From Kaustia mangrovi (GTDB taxonomy: Bacteria; Pseudomonadota; Alphaproteobacteria; Rhizobiales; Im1): a DNA stretch of 64,000 nucleotides. Under the pieces are notes generated by a model. The model was not told the DNA's origin. It saw nothing but the letters and a program-made list of their open reading frames with translations, and did not search any database. Location of the stretch: assembly GCF_015482775.1 (NCBI RefSeq), contig NZ_CP058214.1:1674001-1738000 (forward strand). The letters run 5' to 3'. Positions 34,872 to 54,992 of the stretch are shown in pieces. Position numbers and translations under genes: made by a program. How positions within the stretch are numbered: the stretch's first letter is position 1; every line of letters starts with the position of its first letter.

Positions 34872-34965
34872 CAGGTTGGCGACCCGACCCTATCGGAGAC
34901 ATGCGAACGGGCCTTGAGACAGGTCAATTGAGGCGTGCAACCCGGCCATCCTCACGCAAGCGCCC

Positions 34966-44741: not shown

Positions 44742-46379
44742 TCACTCGGCCGGCACTGCGGAGACGCGCGGGGCCCCCATGGGCGCCTCCTCGCGGACGT
44801 CGCCCCGCACCGTGCGGTAGATGTTGTAGGCCATGATCAACGCGCCGGTGAGGTAGAGAACGCCGCCGAACGCGCGGATGACATAGAAGGGATGCATGGC
44901 CGCCACGGTCTCCGCGAAGGAGTAGACGAGGAAGCCGAGGCCATCATATTCGCGCCACATGAGCCCCTGCATGATGCCGGACACCCACATCGCCGCGGCG
45001 TAGAGCACGATGCCCAGCGTCGCCAGCCAGAAGTGCCAGTTCACCAGCCTCAGCGAATAGAGCTCCTGACGCCCCCACAGCTTCGGCACGAGGTAGTAGA
45101 CGGCGCCGAAGGACACCATGCCGACCCAACCGAGCGCGCCGGAATGGACGTGGCCGATGGTCCAGTCGGTGTAGTGCGACAGCGAGTTCACCGCCTTGAT
45201 GGACATCATCGGACCCTCGAAGGTCGACATGCCGTAGAAGGCGACCGAGATGACCAGCAGACGCATCACCGGGTCGGTCCGGAGCTTGTCCCAGGCGCCC
45301 GACAGCGTCATGAGGCCGTTGATCATGCCGCCCCAGGAGGGCATCCACAGCATGATCGAGAACACCATGCCGAGCGTCTGCGCCCAGTCGGGCAGCGCGG
45401 TGTAGTGGAGATGGTGCGGACCGGCCCAGATATAGAGGAAGATCAGCGCCCAGAAGTGGATGATGGACAGCCGGTAGGAATAGACCGGCCGCTCCGCGCG
45501 CTTGGGCACGAAATAATACATCATGCCGAGGAAGCCGGCGGTCAGGAAGAAGCCCACCGCGTTGTGGCCGTACCACCACTGGGTCAGCGCGTCCTGCACG
45601 CCGGAGAACAGCGAATAGCTCTTCGACCCCATCAGCGAGACTGGCACGGCGAGATTGTTGATGACGTGCAGCATCGCGATGGTCACGATGAAGGAGAGGT
45701 AGAACCAGTTCGCCACGTAGATATGCGGCTCCCGGCGCTTCAGGATCGTGCCGAAGAAGACTGCGAGATAGGCGACCCAGACGAGGGTCAGCCACAGGTC
45801 GACATACCATTCCGGCTCGGCATATTCCCGGCTCTGCGTCACACCCAGCACATAGCCGGAGGCCGCCAGCACGATGAAGAGCTGGTAGCCCCAGAACACG
45901 AACCAGGCGAGATTGCCGAAGGCGAGCCGCGCCCGGCAGGTCCGCTGGACCACGTAGAAGCTGGTCGCCATCAGCGCATTGCCGCCGAAGGCGAAGATGA
46001 CCGCGGAGGTGTGGACCGGCCGGAGCCTGCCGAAGGTCGTCCATGGCAGATCCAGATTGAGCAGCGGATAGGCGAGCTGGAACGCGATCAGGACGCCCAT
46101 CAGGAAGCCGACGATGCCCCAGAACACCGTGGCGATGACGCCGGCGCGGATGACGCCGTCCAGATAGCGCGATTCGACGTCTTCCTTCGCCGCCGGGCGG
46201 GCCTCGGCGGAGAAGTCCACCTTGCGCAGCGTGTAGATGATCATGCCGGCCAGAGCCGCGAACACGATCCAGGCATGCGCGGCAAACAGCACATCGTGCG
46301 CCTTGGCGGCAAAGATGAGCGCAATGACCGCGGCGAGCCCCATCACGGCGATAGAGGTGATCTGCCCTGTGACTGCCAT
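44742..46379 (-). CDS. ccoN: CcoN, catalytic subunit of cbb3-type cytochrome c oxidase
   Basis: A 545-residue heme-copper oxidase subunit with twelve or more hydrophobic segments and the conserved histidines of the low-spin heme and the heme b3/CuB site ([22 protein letters not shown] and [15 protein letters not shown]). It reduces oxygen at low tension with high affinity. ATG 46379 follows GAGGA. It is the first gene of ccoNOQPGHIS. An FNR/FixK box lies 120 nt upstream, in the gap shared with hemN. Confidence 0.96.
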
Positions 46380-46498
46380 TCCAAGTCCTCTCGCATGTCG
46401 TGGCGGTGCGCTTTCGACCCCGTCGCGCACCCGCCGCCCCCGCCTCGATACTTGCCGGGGCATTCAGCAGCTTGTCTCGCAGGCCGTGTAGCTCAGCT

Positions 46499-46512
46499 TT
46501 GATTTGGATCAA
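46499..46512. promoter_or_regulatory. FNR/FixK box (perfect) between ccoN and hemN
   Basis: TTGATTTGGATCAA is a full match to the TTGAT-N4-ATCAA anaerobox. It lies between the divergent ccoN and hemN genes and is the likely activation site for both. On the plus strand its centre (46505.5) would place an FNR class II transcription start near 46547, upstream of the hemN ATG at 46583. Confidence 0.9.
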
Positions 46513-46533: not shown

Positions 46534-46547
46534 TTGACGCAGGTCAA
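46534..46547. promoter_or_regulatory. Second FNR/FixK-like dyad near hemN
   Basis: TTGACGCAGGTCAA (TTGAC-N4-GTCAA) is a perfect dyad with one change per arm from the anaerobox. It lies 21 nt downstream of the first box and would overlap the -10 or start region of a hemN transcript driven from that box. It may limit hemN expression or help on the ccoN side. The same dyad form recurs at 51448-51461. Confidence 0.6.
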
Positions 46548-46582
46548 TGTCGGCCCTCGCGCGCCGTGCAATGGGGTATGCC

Positions 46583-47947
46583 ATGACCAGACAGCTCCCC
46601 CTTGCCGACCTCATTCGCAAGTATTCCGCACCCGTTCCGCGGTATACGAGCTACCCGACCGCCCCGCATTTTCACGGCGATGTCGGCCCCGAACGCTATG
46701 CGGAATGGCTGCGCGCCATCCCCGAGAGCGGCGATGTGTCGCTCTATGTGCATATCCCCTTCTGCGACACGCTATGCTGGTTCTGCGGCTGCCACACCAA
46801 GATCGTGCGCCGCTACGAGCCGGTGCTGGCCTATCTCGAACGGGTGCGCGAGGAAGCCGCCCTCGTCTCCGCCCATCTGCCGGAGGGCGCACGCCTCTCC
46901 CACATCCATTGGGGCGGCGGGTCGCCGACATTGCTCGAGGCCGACGAGATCGCCTCTGTTGCACAATCGTGCAAGAACATCCTGCCCTGCACGGACGATG
47001 CGGAATTCGCCGTCGAGATCGACCCGCGCGACCTCGACGACGAGCGCATCGCGGCGCTGGCGGAGGCCGGCGTGAACCGCGCGAGCATCGGCGTCCAGGA
47101 CTTCGATCCCGAGGTCCAGCGCGCGATCAACCGCATCCAGAGCCTGGAGCTCACCGCGGCATGCGTGGGGAAGCTGCGCGGGGCCGGCATCGCGAGCATC
47201 AACATGGATCTGCTCTACGGCCTGCCCTTCCAGACGGAGGACAGCCTTGCGGAAACCCTGAGGCACGCCATCGCGATGGATCCCGACCGCATCGCGATGT
47301 TCGGCTATGCCCATGTGCCCTGGCTCAAGACCCACCAGCGGCTCATCCCGGAGGACGCCCTGCCCTCGCCGCTTGCGCGCCTGAACCAGTTCGCCATGGC
47401 CTGCGACGTGCTGGAGGCGGCCGGCTACATGCGCGTCGGCCTCGACCATTTCGCCAAGGCCGACGACCCCCTCGCCATCGCCGCGCAGGCCGGCACCCTC
47501 AACCGGAACTTCCAGGGCTACACCACCGATTCGGCGGCCAGCCTGATCGGGCTCGGCGCGTCCGCCATCGGCTCCCTGAACGAGGGCTACATCCAGAACC
47601 TCGTGCCGATCCACGACTATATGCGCAGCGTCGAGGCGGGCGAGCTGCCGGTCGCGCGCGGCATCGCGCTCAGCGAGGACGACCGCATCCGCCGCCATGT
47701 CATCCAGCGGCTGATGTCGGGCTTCGTCTTCTCCCGCTCCGAGCTGGAGCGCCATTTCGGCAGCGCCGCGCGGGCGGTGATCTCCGAGGCCACCCGCATG
47801 GAGGATTTCGAGCGCGACGGCCTCATCGCGCCGACGCCGGACGGCTTCCTCGTGACCAGGACCGGCCGGTTCTTCGTGCGCGCGGTCGCAGCCCGCTTCG
47901 ACGCCTATCTCGCGCGCCGGACGGCACGCCATTCCCTGGCGGTGTAA
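46583..47947 (+). CDS. hemN: HemN, oxygen-independent coproporphyrinogen III oxidase
   Basis: A 454-residue radical SAM enzyme. HIPFCDTLCWFCGC places the [4Fe-4S]/SAM cysteines at residues 61, 65, 68 and 70, one residue off from the E. coli HemN positions. It converts coproporphyrinogen III to protoporphyrinogen IX without oxygen, so heme synthesis can continue as the cbb3 oxidase is induced. ATG 46583 is chosen because it lies after the predicted FNR-dependent start; ATGs at 46547 and 46571 are in frame. The divergent ccoN promoter shares its control region. Confidence 0.93.
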   Translation: MTRQLPLADLIRKYSAPVPRYTSYPTAPHFHGDVGPERYAEWLRAIPESGDVSLYVHIPFCDTLCWFCGCHTKIVRRYEPVLAYLERVREEAALVSAHLPEGARLSHIHWGGGSPTLLEADEIASVAQSCKNILPCTDDAEFAVEIDPRDLDDERIAALAEAGVNRASIGVQDFDPEVQRAINRIQSLELTAACVGKLRGAGIASINMDLLYGLPFQTEDSLAETLRHAIAMDPDRIAMFGYAHVPWLKTHQRLIPEDALPSPLARLNQFAMACDVLEAAGYMRVGLDHFAKADDPLAIAAQAGTLNRNFQGYTTDSAASLIGLGASAIGSLNEGYIQNLVPIHDYMRSVEAGELPVARGIALSEDDRIRRHVIQRLMSGFVFSRSELERHFGSAARAVISEATRMEDFERDGLIAPTPDGFLVTRTGRFFVRAVAARFDAYLARRTARHSLAV

Positions 47948-50896: not shown

Positions 50897-51373
50897 TCAC
50901 GAGGTCGGCTTCACCTCGATTTTCCTGCTTTCGGCAGCAGCAGGTTTCTTGATCTTCACGGTGAGAACGCCCTTCGACATGGTTGCCTCGACATTGGCCG
51001 GGTCGATGCCCGACGGCAGCTCAAGGGACCGCGAGAAGGCGCCGTAGCTGCGCTCGACAAGGTGGAAGTCCTTGTCCGTCTTCTCGGTTTCCGCCTTCTT
51101 CTCGCCCTTGATGGTGAGGACGTTGTCGACGAGCGTCACATCGACATCCTTCTCCTCAAGACCCGGCAGCTCCGCGGTCAGCTCGATCTCGCCATCGGTC
51201 TCCGACACGTCCATGCTCGGCGTCAGGCCGGCGGAGCCGAAGCTGGGCAGCCCCGACCTGAAATCGTCGAACAGGCTGTCGATCTCGCGCTGCAAGCTGC
51301 CGAACGGGTTGCTCTGGCGGCCCAGAAGATCCGTCCGGCCGCGGTGGCTTGGAGTCAGGGACCTGAGTTTCAT
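50897..51373 (-). CDS. Hsp20-family small heat-shock protein
   Basis: A 158-residue alpha-crystallin-type chaperone. The ATG at 51373 follows GGAGG. The core has MDVSETDGEIELTAELPGL and FSRSLELPSGID, with the VLTVKIKK element near the end. The N-terminal part (NPFGSLQREIDSLFDDF) is the usual oligomerising arm. Hsp20 proteins hold unfolding proteins in a soluble state. A FNR/FixK-like dyad at 51448-51461 lies 75 nt upstream, which would place hsp20 under the adjacent FixK-like regulator. Confidence 0.9.
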   Translation of the reverse strand: MKLRSLTPSHRGRTDLLGRQSNPFGSLQREIDSLFDDFRSGLPSFGSAGLTPSMDVSETDGEIELTAELPGLEEKDVDVTLVDNVLTIKGEKKAETEKTDKDFHLVERSYGAFSRSLELPSGIDPANVEATMSKGVLTVKIKKPAAAESRKIEVKPTS

Positions 51374-51447
51374 CGGGAAGCCTCCTTCTCTCTGAAGCAT
51401 TCATCCCACATCGATCAAAGAAGACATCGATTGAGATGTGTCCGGCA

Positions 51448-51461
51448 TTGACCTGCGTCAA
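51448..51461. promoter_or_regulatory. FNR/FixK-like dyad upstream of hsp20
   Basis: TTGACCTGCGTCAA (TTGAC-N4-GTCAA) lies in the 111-nt gap between the FixK-like gene stop (51485) and the hsp20 start (51373). A class II transcription start on the minus strand would fall near 51413, giving a leader of about 40 nt. The -10 region is not well formed. Confidence 0.65.
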
Positions 51462-51484: not shown

Positions 51485-52168
51485 TCAGGCGGCGAGCCGG
51501 ACCGGACCGACGCGAACCCTGCGCGAGCCCTCCAGAGAAATCGCGCCCGTCTCCTGGAGCTGGGTCATCGTGCGCGACACGGTCTCGATGGTGAGGCCGA
51601 GATGGTCGGCGATGTCCTGGCGCGACATCGGAATGTCGATGACCGCCGCATCGCACTGGCGCTCCGCCGCGCTGGCGAGAAAGGCCATGACACGCTCGCG
51701 CGCACTCTTGCGCCCGAGCAGCACCATGTGCTCGTGCAGCCGGCCGAGCTCGCGGGTCGCCGCGATCCACAGGGCGCTGCCGAGCTCGGCGTCGCGGCCG
51801 GCCGCCGCCATCAGCGCCGCGCGCTTGACGATCACGACCCGGCACGGCGTCACCGCCTCCGCGGAGAAGGTGTGATTGGCGCAGGGCTCGAAGCCGAAGA
51901 CGTCGCCGGGGAAGTGGAACTCGCCGATCTGGCGGCGGCCATCCTCGAGGAACTTGCAGGTGCGCACGACGCCGGAGACGACCTTGTAGACATAGTCGGC
52001 GGGCTCCTCCTCGGCGAAGAGCTCCTCGTTGCGCTCGAACGACATGGCGCTGCCCATCATGGCGAGCGTGTCGCCGAGAACGTCGCCGGACATCTCCGGA
52101 GCCGCCGCATTGCCCGCGACATACGGGGAGACGCCGTCCGCTGCTTCGTAAAGATGACTGTTCAACAT
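51485..52168 (-). CDS. Crp/Fnr-family regulator without Fe-S cysteine cluster (FixK-like)
   Basis: A 227-residue regulator. Residues about 45-140 form a cyclic-nucleotide-type beta-barrel (FHFPGDVFGF). The helix-turn-helix near 180-205 reads SRQDIADHLGLTIETVSRTM, with the E-x-x-S-R recognition pattern (Glu195, Ser198, Arg199) that reads TTGAT half-sites. The N-terminal cysteine cluster of FNR is missing, so oxygen sensing must come from elsewhere, most likely FixLJ. Cys172 lies near the DNA-binding domain, a position comparable to the redox-sensitive Cys of FixK2. It is divergent from the receiver-only gene, with a TTGAT box between them. Confidence 0.9.
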   Translation of the reverse strand: MLNSHLYEAADGVSPYVAGNAAAPEMSGDVLGDTLAMMGSAMSFERNEELFAEEEPADYVYKVVSGVVRTCKFLEDGRRQIGEFHFPGDVFGFEPCANHTFSAEAVTPCRVVIVKRAALMAAAGRDAELGSALWIAATRELGRLHEHMVLLGRKSARERVMAFLASAAERQCDAAVIDIPMSRQDIADHLGLTIETVSRTMTQLQETGAISLEGSRRVRVGPVRLAA

Positions 52169-52319
52169 GGCCGTAATCCCCTGTTCGCTGAAGTGATGCT
52201 CAAGGGATAGGACAGACGGGGCACGGGCAAAATTCGGATATTGCCCTTAAGGGGAATCCCGTAATTGCCGAGGGGTGGGCCAGTCTCGATTATCCTGCGG
52301 CGCATTCCCCGGCCATTCA

Positions 52320-52333
52320 TTGATCTTGGTCAA
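52320..52333. promoter_or_regulatory. FNR/FixK box upstream of the receiver-only gene
   Basis: TTGATCTTGGTCAA (TTGAT-N4-GTCAA) lies in the gap between the FixK-like gene and the receiver-only gene. TAATGT at 52357-52362 is a fair -10, and the resulting start near 52369 puts the box centre at about -42, ideal for FNR class II activation of the plus-strand gene. Confidence 0.75.
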
Positions 52334-52423
52334 GGGCCTCCGGTCCCCTCAGGCCGTAATGTGCGAACAGACGCCGAGGCGGCAGGGTCCGCAGCACCGG
52401 CCTTGAGTCGAACGAGGACAACA

Positions 52424-52783
52424 GTGAAGCCGACCATCCTCATTGTCGAAGACGACAAGGCCGTCCGCGAATCCCTGCGGATGGTTCTGGAGGTCTATGG
52501 CTACACGGTGGAGGAGTTCGCCACCGGCGAGGATCTCATCGAACGCGCCGAGCCGGTCGACGGCGCCTGCATCATTCTCGACATCCATCTGCCCGGAGCG
52601 AGCGGGATCGAGACCCTGGAGAGGCTGCGCGCGCACAGCGGGCCGTTCAACGCCATCCTGGTGTCGGCGCGCGCGACCGACCGGATGCAGAACGACGCCC
52701 GGCGCCTTCACGCGCTGGCCCTGTTCAGCAAGCCGGTGGATATCGACCGCCTTCTCGGCACGATCTCCGCTCTCGAGCAGTGA
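52424..52783 (+). CDS. Single-domain response regulator receiver, possible FixT-like
   Basis: A 119-residue receiver domain and nothing else. VEDD gives the acidic pair, ILDIHLPG the phosphorylatable Asp, LVSAR the Thr/Ser position, and FSKPVD the conserved Lys. GTG 52424 is the start, with AGGA 5 nt upstream. A box with a -10 at the right distance indicates FixK-type activation. In Caulobacter and Sinorhizobium, FixT is a small receiver protein, FixK-activated, that inhibits FixL; this gene has the right context. It has a single Cys, unlike the multi-Cys Caulobacter FixT, so homology is not assured. Confidence 0.8.
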   Translation: MKPTILIVEDDKAVRESLRMVLEVYGYTVEEFATGEDLIERAEPVDGACIILDIHLPGASGIETLERLRAHSGPFNAILVSARATDRMQNDARRLHALALFSKPVDIDRLLGTISALEQ

Positions 52784-52801: not shown

Positions 52802-53431
52802 TCACCCCACCTCCCCGTCGATGCCCCCCTGGACGATGAAGGCCATGCGCACCACCTGAGAGAGGCTCGAGGCCTCCAGCTTGTGCATGACGTTCGCCCG
52901 GTAGATCTCGACCGTTCGCGGGCTGATTCCGAGATCGTGGGCGATGATCTTGTTGGGGTGGCCGGCGACCAGCCCGTCGAAGACCTGGCGCTCGCGCTCC
53001 GTCAGCGTGTCGAGCCGGGTGCGGATCTCCGCCCGGCTGTCCTCCTGGTGCTGCGCCCTGGAGCGGAATTCGAGCGCGGAGCGGATCGCGGCGATCATGC
53101 GCTCGTCGTCGAACGGCTTCTCGATGAAGTCGAAGGCCCCCGCCTTCAGGGCCTCCACCGCGAGCGGCACGTCGGAATGGCCGGTGATCACGATCACGGG
53201 CAGGAACTTGTCGACCTCGCGCATATGGTGCAAGAGCTCGATGCCCGTCATTCCGGGCATGCGCACATCGGTCACGATGCAGGCGAAACCGAGGGAAGGG
53301 AGGGTCTCCAGGAAAGAGTCCGCAGAGTCGTGGCCGACGACCTCGAATCGCTCCGCCGCCAGCAGGAAGGCAAGCGAATCCCTCATCGCCTCGTCGTCGT
53401 CGATGACGTGGACGAGTCCCGCGCTACTCAT
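52802..53431 (-). CDS. fixJ: FixJ-like response regulator
   Basis: A 209-residue two-domain regulator. The receiver has acidic DDD at 11-13, Asp55 in TDVRMPG, ITGHSD and EKPFDD, and the C-terminal LuxR-type helix-turn-helix reads [23 protein letters not shown] 53431 follows GGAGA and overlaps the fixL 3' end by 8 nt. Phosphorylated FixJ activates fixK and other targets under low oxygen. It converges with the receiver-only gene, 18 nt apart. Confidence 0.92.
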
Positions 53432-54992
53432 CGGTATTCTCTCCATCGATCCGCGGCAGGGTGAAAGTGAATATGGTACCGCCCTGCGGATTCGGCTCAA
53501 CCCATATGCGTCCGCCATGGGCCTCCACGATGGTGCGGCAGATCGACAGGCCGACCCCCATGCCGTGCGGCTTCGACGTCACGAAGGGCTGGAACAGCTT
53601 GGCCGCCACATCCTCGTCGAGCCCGATCCCGGTATCGATGACGCTGATTCTCGCATAGCCGTCCCCGGCCTCGCCGGTCGCGATGGTGACATTGCGGCGC
53701 GGGCATCCCTCCACCGCCTCCACGGCATTGCGCATCAGATTGAGCAGCACCTGCTGGACCTGGACCTTGTCGGCGAACACCGTATCGACTGCAGAATCGA
53801 GCTGGAAACGGACCCTGACGGCGTGTTCCTTCGCCCCCACAAGGGCAAGCGCCCCGGCTTCCTCGATGATCTTGGCAAGACTCTCGACCGAGCGCTCGCT
53901 CTCACCGCGCGACATGAACTCGCGAAGACGGGTGATGATCTGGCCGGCCCGCAGCGCCTGGGCCGCCGCACGGTCCAGCGCGCCCACCAGCGTCTCCCTG
54001 GGCGGTGTCTCGCCGCTCTCCAGGAGCCGCTGGCAGCCCTTGAGATAGTTGGAGATCGCACTCAGCGGCTGATTGAGCTCATGGGCGAGGTTGGAGGCCA
54101 TCTCGCCCATGGCCGTCAGGCGGGAAATATGGACGAGCTCCGTCTGCAGCTCCTGGAGGCGCGCTTCGGTCTCCTGGCGTTCCGTCAGGTCCCGGATGAA
54201 CCCCGTGAAATAGCGATGCTCGCCGTTGTTCATCTCCCCGACATTGAGCTCCAGCGGGAAGGTCGATCCGTCCTTGCGCTCGCCGACCACGACGCGGCCG
54301 ATGCCGATGATCCGCCGCTCGCCCGTCTCCAGATAACGCGAGATATAGACGTCGTGCGCCTCGCGATAGGGCGACGGCATGAGCATGGACACATTCCGCC
54401 CGACCACCTCCTCGGCGGCATAGCCGAACTGCTTTTCCGCCGCGGGCGAGAAGAACTGGACAATACCCTGCGGGTCGATCACCACCACGGAGTCCGGAAC
54501 CGTCTCCAGAATGGAAGTCAGATGCGCCTCGCGCGCCCGCAGCGCGCTGACGGTCGCCTCCTGCTCGCCCATGTCGCGCACGACCTTGACGAAGCCCGCC
54601 GTCCGGCCCTCCGCATCGAGGAGCGGCGTGGTGACGGCATTGGCGACGTAGGTCGACCCATCCTTGCGCCGCCGCACCCCCTGGTCCTCGCAGCGGCCGG
54701 TCCGCTCGGCGAGCGCGAGCTGCTGGGCGACCTTGTCCGCCGCCCGGTCCTCCGGCAGGAACGCCATGGAGATGTGCTGTCCGACCGCCTCTTCCCGGGA
54801 CCAGCCGGCGATCCGTTCGGCACCGGTATTCCAGCCCTTGACGATGCCGCCGGTGTCCACGACGACGATCGCATAGTCGGTAATGGCGTCGGCCACACGG
54901 TCATGGCCATCCGCGCCGTCCATCGGACCGGTTATCGCCGAATTCTCACTCAAGAGGCTCCTCGTCGCCCATGCTTTGCAAGACTGTGACAT
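53424..54992 (-). CDS. fixL: FixL, heme-PAS oxygen-sensing histidine kinase
   Basis: A 522-residue sensor kinase if started at ATG 54992. Two PAS domains (about 30-145 and 155-270) precede the H box [20 protein letters not shown]...AHELNQPL (phospho-His about 304) and the ATPase domain. In the second [12 protein letters not shown] gives His213 and GIGR gives Arg233, the spacing of the heme His200 and Arg220 of Bradyrhizobium FixL. It binds heme, is inhibited by oxygen and phosphorylates FixJ. There is no membrane segment, so it is soluble. The start is uncertain: TTG 54953 has GAGGAG 4 nt upstream, and TATAGT at 55017-55022 is a fair -10. Confidence 0.92.

Follow-up and report, generated by a model that had tools for sequence, protein, structure and literature searches.

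The fixLJ-fixK locus of Kaustia mangrovi (order Rhizobiales, class Alphaproteobacteria) raises the question of what is done there by a gene for a lone receiver domain, which sits between fixK and fixJ-fixL, and whether its product acts back on the sensor FixL. We analysed a window of 64,000 nt, this being the whole stretch of DNA under study (NZ_CP058214.1, positions 1,674,001-1,738,000, forward strand), to which the coordinates below refer. The features at issue are as follows.

51485..52168, minus strand: fixK (CRP/FNR family), transcribed away from the receiver gene
52248..52263, minus strand: FixJ-site-like sequence TACGGGATTCCCCTTA upstream of fixK, with 4 mismatches in 16 to the FixJ site given in PMC4999443
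52320..52333, plus strand: FixK/FNR-type box TTGATCTTGGTCAA, exact, 91-104 nt upstream of the receiver gene
52357..52362, plus strand: -10-like hexamer TAATGT, read from the sequence
52414..52418, plus strand: Shine-Dalgarno-like GAGGA, 5 nt ahead of the GTG, by reading
52424..52783, plus strand: receiver-only gene, GTG start, stop at 52781-52783, product of 119 aa
52802..53518, minus strand: fixJ, converging on the receiver gene with a gap of 18 nt
53424..54992, minus strand: fixL, a PAS-PAS-HisKA-HATPase kinase

The first-pass annotation had described a receiver-only protein adjoining fixJ-fixL, and both points were confirmed, together with frame, coordinates and length: Pfam assigned to the 119-aa product a single domain, Response_reg, at residues 5-114 (79.9 bits). 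Among NCBIfam models, fixJ was recovered as the FixJ equivalog (308.8 bits, above the cut-off of 255); the best matches of fixL (FixL-Rhizob, 609.7 bits) and fixK (FixK-Caul, 222.7 bits) lay below their cut-offs of 850 and 300, correspondingly, and that of the receiver was FixJ with 66.2 bits, far below the cut-off. The predicted model of the receiver has the standard receiver fold (mean pLDDT 95.5). A fold search with this model returned from the PDB a list of ordinary receivers, headed by StyR, in which B. japonicum FixJ came 28th and 47th, and gave no functional clue.

As to the control of the gene, the FixK operator is given as TTGA-N6-TCAA (PMC13327599), to which TTGATCTTGGTCAA fits exactly. 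Allowing up to one mismatch, TTGATNNNNNTCAA was matched 17 times in the window against 3.26 expected (both strands, the palindrome being counted twice), and the looser TTGN8CAA was not commoner there than by chance (5 matches against 3.93 expected). TAATGT lies one base off the -10 position expected for a box centred at -41.5; it is weak by itself, since a generic sigma-70 scan picked up no promoter-like site here. The earlier proposal of a FixK-type box followed by a -10 therefore held for the box, which is exact and passes the comparative control described below, and less so for the -10. FNR and DNR proteins are reported to bind virtually the same sequence as FixK (PMC2908626). Searching the window genome with the FnrL model, we found one clear FNR-like protein, the product of the window fixK (106.1 bits; next 35.9), and because it is the only good match in the genome, FixK is the protein most likely to act at the box. 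Upstream of fixK, the 16-mer resembles the FixJ site to a degree (four mismatches or fewer) that arose in 5 cases when the intergenic stretch was base-shuffled 1000 times.

Further FixK-type boxes were seen elsewhere in the window. Two, TTGATTTGGATCAA and TTGACGCAGGTCAA (46499-46512 and 46534-46547), lie between a COX1-family (ccoN-like) gene (44742-46463, minus strand) and a hemN-like radical-SAM gene (46547-47947, plus strand); another, TTGACCTGCGTCAA (51448-51461), immediately precedes an Hsp20 gene (50897-51400, minus strand), Hsp20 being listed in a predicted FixK regulon (PMC2908626), and TTGAGACAGGTCAA is found at 34914-34927.

For the comparative control, 397 genomes of the order were searched for FixL at E 1e-110, and 75 genomes matched at 81 places. 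Beyond the window itself there were 80 places, of which 79 were taken in (the one in G279 was left out); with the window they make 80 order-level FixL loci; a class-level search at E 1e-80 contributed 39 more, with five further places left out, and L172, which gave no FixL, was left out of the counts. A receiver-only ORF stood beside fixJ in at least 53 of the 80 order-level loci, a floor because strongly degenerate receivers under the profile threshold may be missed: 51 lie in the fixJ strand and two are inverted (the window and G333). In the remainder, no receiver was found in 23 loci and no fixJ in 4. At class level, 16 of the 39 FixL loci carried such a gene beside fixJ. Together with the one of S. 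meliloti pSymA (L052) and the one of G130 (L132, found via its receiver), these make the 71 receivers compared here; in the whole set of 121 survey rows, 45 were without a receiver found and 6 without a fixJ found. These loci are not independent, some genomes giving two or three and related species recurring. Of the 70 receivers adjacent to fixJ, 67 run in the fixJ strand, whereas that of the window is convergent with fixJ. It should be added that a FixL scan of named genomes gave four loci, of which the single usable one (Phenylobacterium, L173) had no receiver found beside fixJ.

Within 300 nt upstream, the exact operator was present for 36 of the 71 receivers, and a version with at most one mismatch for 59; base shuffles of the same stretches would yield 0.05 and 2.35. 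As control, the stretch before fixJ in these 71 loci gave 0 and 4, and by this comparison the box is above chance. Exact boxes fall 65-147 nt before the receiver start, which is approximate (profile start less five residues). Box-like sites also precede fixL (4/70 exact, 21/70 at one mismatch or fewer) and fixK (4/62 and 11/62). All 36 exact boxes belong to the order of the window genome; the 16 class-level receivers have none exact and ten with one mismatch. This is strong evidence that the FixLJ-linked receivers of the order, as a class, are targets of FixK or a like regulator, in line with the published FixK dependence of RPA4249 (PMC2908626). Receivers with FixK-type boxes thus adjoin fixLJ in many species, and feedback receivers at this place are common and already known (FixT; Bll2758, RPA4249). 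The window receiver is a real and probably FixK-controlled member of this widespread kind.

The sole cysteine of the protein, Cys49 (codon 52568-52570, plus strand), is the first residue of strand 3, four before Asp53. The first-pass annotation had set it, as a single Cys that remains, against the several cysteines of the Fe-S cluster in Caulobacter FixT. This argument failed. The four-Cys Fe-S motif is described as confined to Caulobacter FixT (PMC7078487), so its lack is the normal state; with one Cys overall, the window receiver does not carry it, and across 123 scanned loci none of the ORFs of 80-189 aa contains C-x2-C-x2-C-x4-C. The Cys49 position holds Cys in 66 of the 71 FixLJ-linked receivers and in 109 of 116 FixJ proteins, and in 2 of 26 other receiver rows of the window genome (one row being a truncated duplicate gapped there). 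Being common to FixJ and the receivers, the single Cys is therefore an old feature of the FixJ/FixT stock, and a relic of an Fe-S motif is rejected; a lone Cys in proteins of this type should accordingly not be read as the trace of an Fe-S sensor since lost. S. meliloti FixT has two cysteines spaced C-x4-C, the second of which aligns with Cys49, and this spacing is that of C59-C64 in Caulobacter FixT, whose cysteines were placed via the S. meliloti spacing. C64 is reported as broadly conserved in FixT, its mutation weakening inhibition (PMC7078487). Of the 28 receivers in which acid pair, Asp or Lys is missing, all but one keep the strand-3 Cys, 27 in number (L055 was set aside, as trimming had cut its row), and this retention suggests a use of the residue apart from phosphorylation.

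The phosphorylation pocket is where the window receiver departs from the studied FixT proteins. The acid pair Glu9-Asp10, the phospho-acceptor Asp53, Ser81 and Lys103, whose roles are those usual in receiver domains, are all intact and make a complete pocket, which is kept in all four members of the clade described below. Across the survey, 43 of the 71 receivers keep acid pair, Asp and Lys (42 counted, plus L055, whose pocket is whole by eye despite a duplication), and 28 have lost at least one of them. FixT inhibits FixL (PMC7078487), and FixT of both S. meliloti and C. crescentus is described as devoid of the acid pair and not phosphorylated (PMC9430884). The window receiver has not lost the acid pair before helix 1 and for this reason should not be called FixT; it may work like FixT all the same. 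Of the earlier suggestion of a FixT-type feedback inhibitor, the role thus survives as the best guess, given the box, the fixLJ-fixK setting, the receiver-only build and the survey, and the name does not. The companion suggestion of a phosphate sink is upheld as to the whole pocket, which contrasts with the acid pair lost in characterised FixT; a sink is a reasonable proposal on these residues, and the protein still looks able to accept phosphate, unlike the brakes studied in vitro. In a search covering mostly open-access papers, we found no phosphorylation test reported for a phospho-competent receiver of this kind.

As to descent, the window receiver forms a clade with the receivers of G333 (57% identity) and G130 (43%) and an orphan in G019 (50%), supported at 100/96 in a 63-row tree and at 100/90 in a 126-row tree, in which the backbone was unresolved and the bootstrap had not settled. 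A search of the 397 order genomes gave 16 with a match at 1e-18, four of them being the clade members and the other 12 showing at most 40% identity; family searches around G333 (28 genomes) and G019 (10 genomes) gave weaker matches, which lie outside the trees. The receivers of G333 and G130 are both inverted beside fixJ, like that of the window. The box is present in the two members with both fixL and fixJ, exact in the window and with one mismatch in G333. In G130 (L132), where fixJ is present and no fixL-like gene was found within 11 kb, no box at one mismatch or fewer occurs within 300 nt upstream of the receiver; the orphan of G019 (L010) has none in about 580 nt, and fix genes are absent within 1.5 kb of it. 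In G130 the most FixL-like kinase (42% identical) is encoded on another contig. In the closest relative, that of G333 (L055, 6058-6552), 13 residues are duplicated in tandem (GLETLARMRARN repeated) after helix 3.

Outside the clade, the receiver of L222, from another order, comes next (99/86); its gene stands after fixL-fixJ in the same orientation, and further near relatives from other orders are likewise encoded after fixJ-like genes. Among eight near relatives (L157, L158, L160, L166, L222, L225, L227 and L228), exact boxes were absent from the 300 nt examined, and a one-mismatch match occurred only at L227. The receiver of G002, from the same family and another genus, groups with the Rhizobiales type (99/96) and is divergent from fixK, about 9 kb from fixLJ, with no upstream box at one mismatch. 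In the 63-row chosen set a branch (89/89) has all receiver-only rows on the same side, apart from L226_R, which was set aside after the tree was seen; in the 126-row tree they are not monophyletic, and a constraint keeping them in a single group was not rejected (p-AU 0.206). On a profile of same-strand receivers the window receiver scored 105.4 bits, against 76.8 on a FixJ profile and against 92.5 for an unrelated regulator of the same genome on the former. L142, likewise inverted beside fixJ, falls among Rhizobiales-type rows in the 126-row tree, so the inversion probably arose more than once.

We doubt, and offer only as speculation, that the lineage swapped its Rhizobiales FixT-type receiver for a phospho-competent one of different stock, reversed between fixJ and fixK and newly brought under FixK, so that the loop would have been wired twice with differing chemistries. 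Replacement by a foreign receiver is a possibility and not a result, because placing the window clade within Rhizobiales-type receivers was not rejected (p-AU 0.088). Were it true, one feedback loop would have two chemistries, kinase blocking and phosphate draining.

Concerning function, we lean, with some reserve, towards a single-domain receiver that is induced by FixK, can be phosphorylated and damps FixL. In this view the pathway of the sensor itself probably switches the receiver gene on, and the product is most likely a brake on FixL. When oxygen falls, FixL would phosphorylate FixJ, and FixJ-P would turn on fixK; FixK would then bind the box at 52320-52333 and raise expression of the receiver, which could bind FixL through a FixJ-like docking face and lower FixJ-P by taking the phosphate itself, by blocking FixL, or by both. 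The gene, its box, the recurrence over many loci and the whole pocket are seen directly; we infer the use of the box by FixK, the binding of the receiver to FixL, and the sign and chemistry of the effect. Helix 1 is the usual kinase-docking helix. Over the 71 loci, its identity to the FixJ of the same locus is 0.465 against 0.281 for the rest of the domain, and compared with other receivers of the window genome the values are 0.248 and 0.219. In the window receiver, 6 of 13 helix 1 residues are those of its FixJ, a figure that two other receivers of the genome also reach, and helix 1 is thus too weak to serve as proof of FixL docking.

Three other explanations were weighed. A pure anti-kinase in the manner of FixT would block FixL autophosphorylation and take no phosphate, the pocket standing idle. 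Both studied FixT proteins are reported to act so, with phosphorylation not seen (PMC7078487, PMC9430884), and nearly all of the pocket-deficient receivers retain the Cys whose Caulobacter counterpart matters for activity; against this, acid pair, Asp, Ser and Lys are kept throughout the four-member clade, which suggests that they are used, and we regard this reading as rather unlikely. A receiver that accepts phosphate could equally carry the signal onward. FixL would then phosphorylate it and the phospho-form would bind some other target, as DivK or CpdR do, feedback not being its job; the pocket would suit this, as do the receiver-only proteins of other orders that are encoded after fixJ-like genes and lack an exact FixK box. 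The FixK box of the window, however, would make such an adaptor the product of the pathway that it serves, and the genes next to it offered no evident target, which leaves this explanation improbable to a similar degree. Least credible of all is a receiver with no function in FixLJ control, kept by chance or drifting. The rarity and scattered occurrence of the clade, the duplication in the G333 relative and the position of one relative away from fix genes would agree with it; the pocket residues unchanged in all four members, and the box in both members whose locus has fixL and fixJ, speak against it, and we give it very little credence.

If the phospho-competent members indeed brake FixL as sinks, feedback in a widespread oxygen circuit would run on two chemistries; the kinds to compare, according to the survey, are the receivers with the pocket kept and those with it lost. 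The matter touches on Bradyrhizobium diazoefficiens, where FixK2 reduces its own expression in a way that a 2022 paper described as unidentified, naming bll0330, another response regulator, as a candidate (PMC9104804).

Among known systems, FixT of S. meliloti and C. crescentus is likewise a receiver-only protein of the FixLJ pathway. The S. meliloti gene, annotated fixT in other S. meliloti records, also lies between fixJ and fixK, and its product shares the Cys before strand 3; the aligned proteins are 26% identical. A tblastn search with the window receiver against 40 kb around this pSymA gene gave no match at 1e-4, and FixT membership by direct similarity was rejected; plasmid-wide, 1113 records matched, with identity of at most 40.2% among the 60 listed. 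The retained acid pair separates the window receiver from FixT of both species, and Caulobacter FixT adds the four-Cys motif that is missing here. Bll2758 of B. diazoefficiens and RPA4249 of Rhodopseudomonas palustris were compared by description. The former is a response regulator encoded between fixLJ and fixK2 (PMC4070659), is listed in a table row among microoxia-responsive genes (PMC6515984), and a fixK2'-lacZ reporter with a bll2758 deletion exists (plasmid pMB1109, PMC9104804); the latter depends on FixK for expression, belongs to an ortholog group labelled "response regulator receiver protein, FixJ" (PMC2908626) and is called homologous to FixT (PMC13327599). With Bll2758 the window receiver shares the placement between fixJ and fixK, and it has a complete pocket. 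Receivers of the same order with a fixJ-receiver-fixK layout share the strand of fixJ and branch in other groups of the tree, whereas that of the window is inverted. Osp of Rhodobacter sphaeroides is also receiver-only and feeds back on a kinase, but it acts on CckA and is described as without the acid pair and not phosphorylated (PMC9430884). The receiver domain of FixJ has the same fold, the helix 1 motif and the Cys before strand 3, in a protein with the DNA-binding domain that the window receiver lacks. Against this background, the receiver of Kaustia mangrovi is distinguished by its small clade, its intact phosphorylation pocket and the reversed placement of those clade members that stand beside fixJ.
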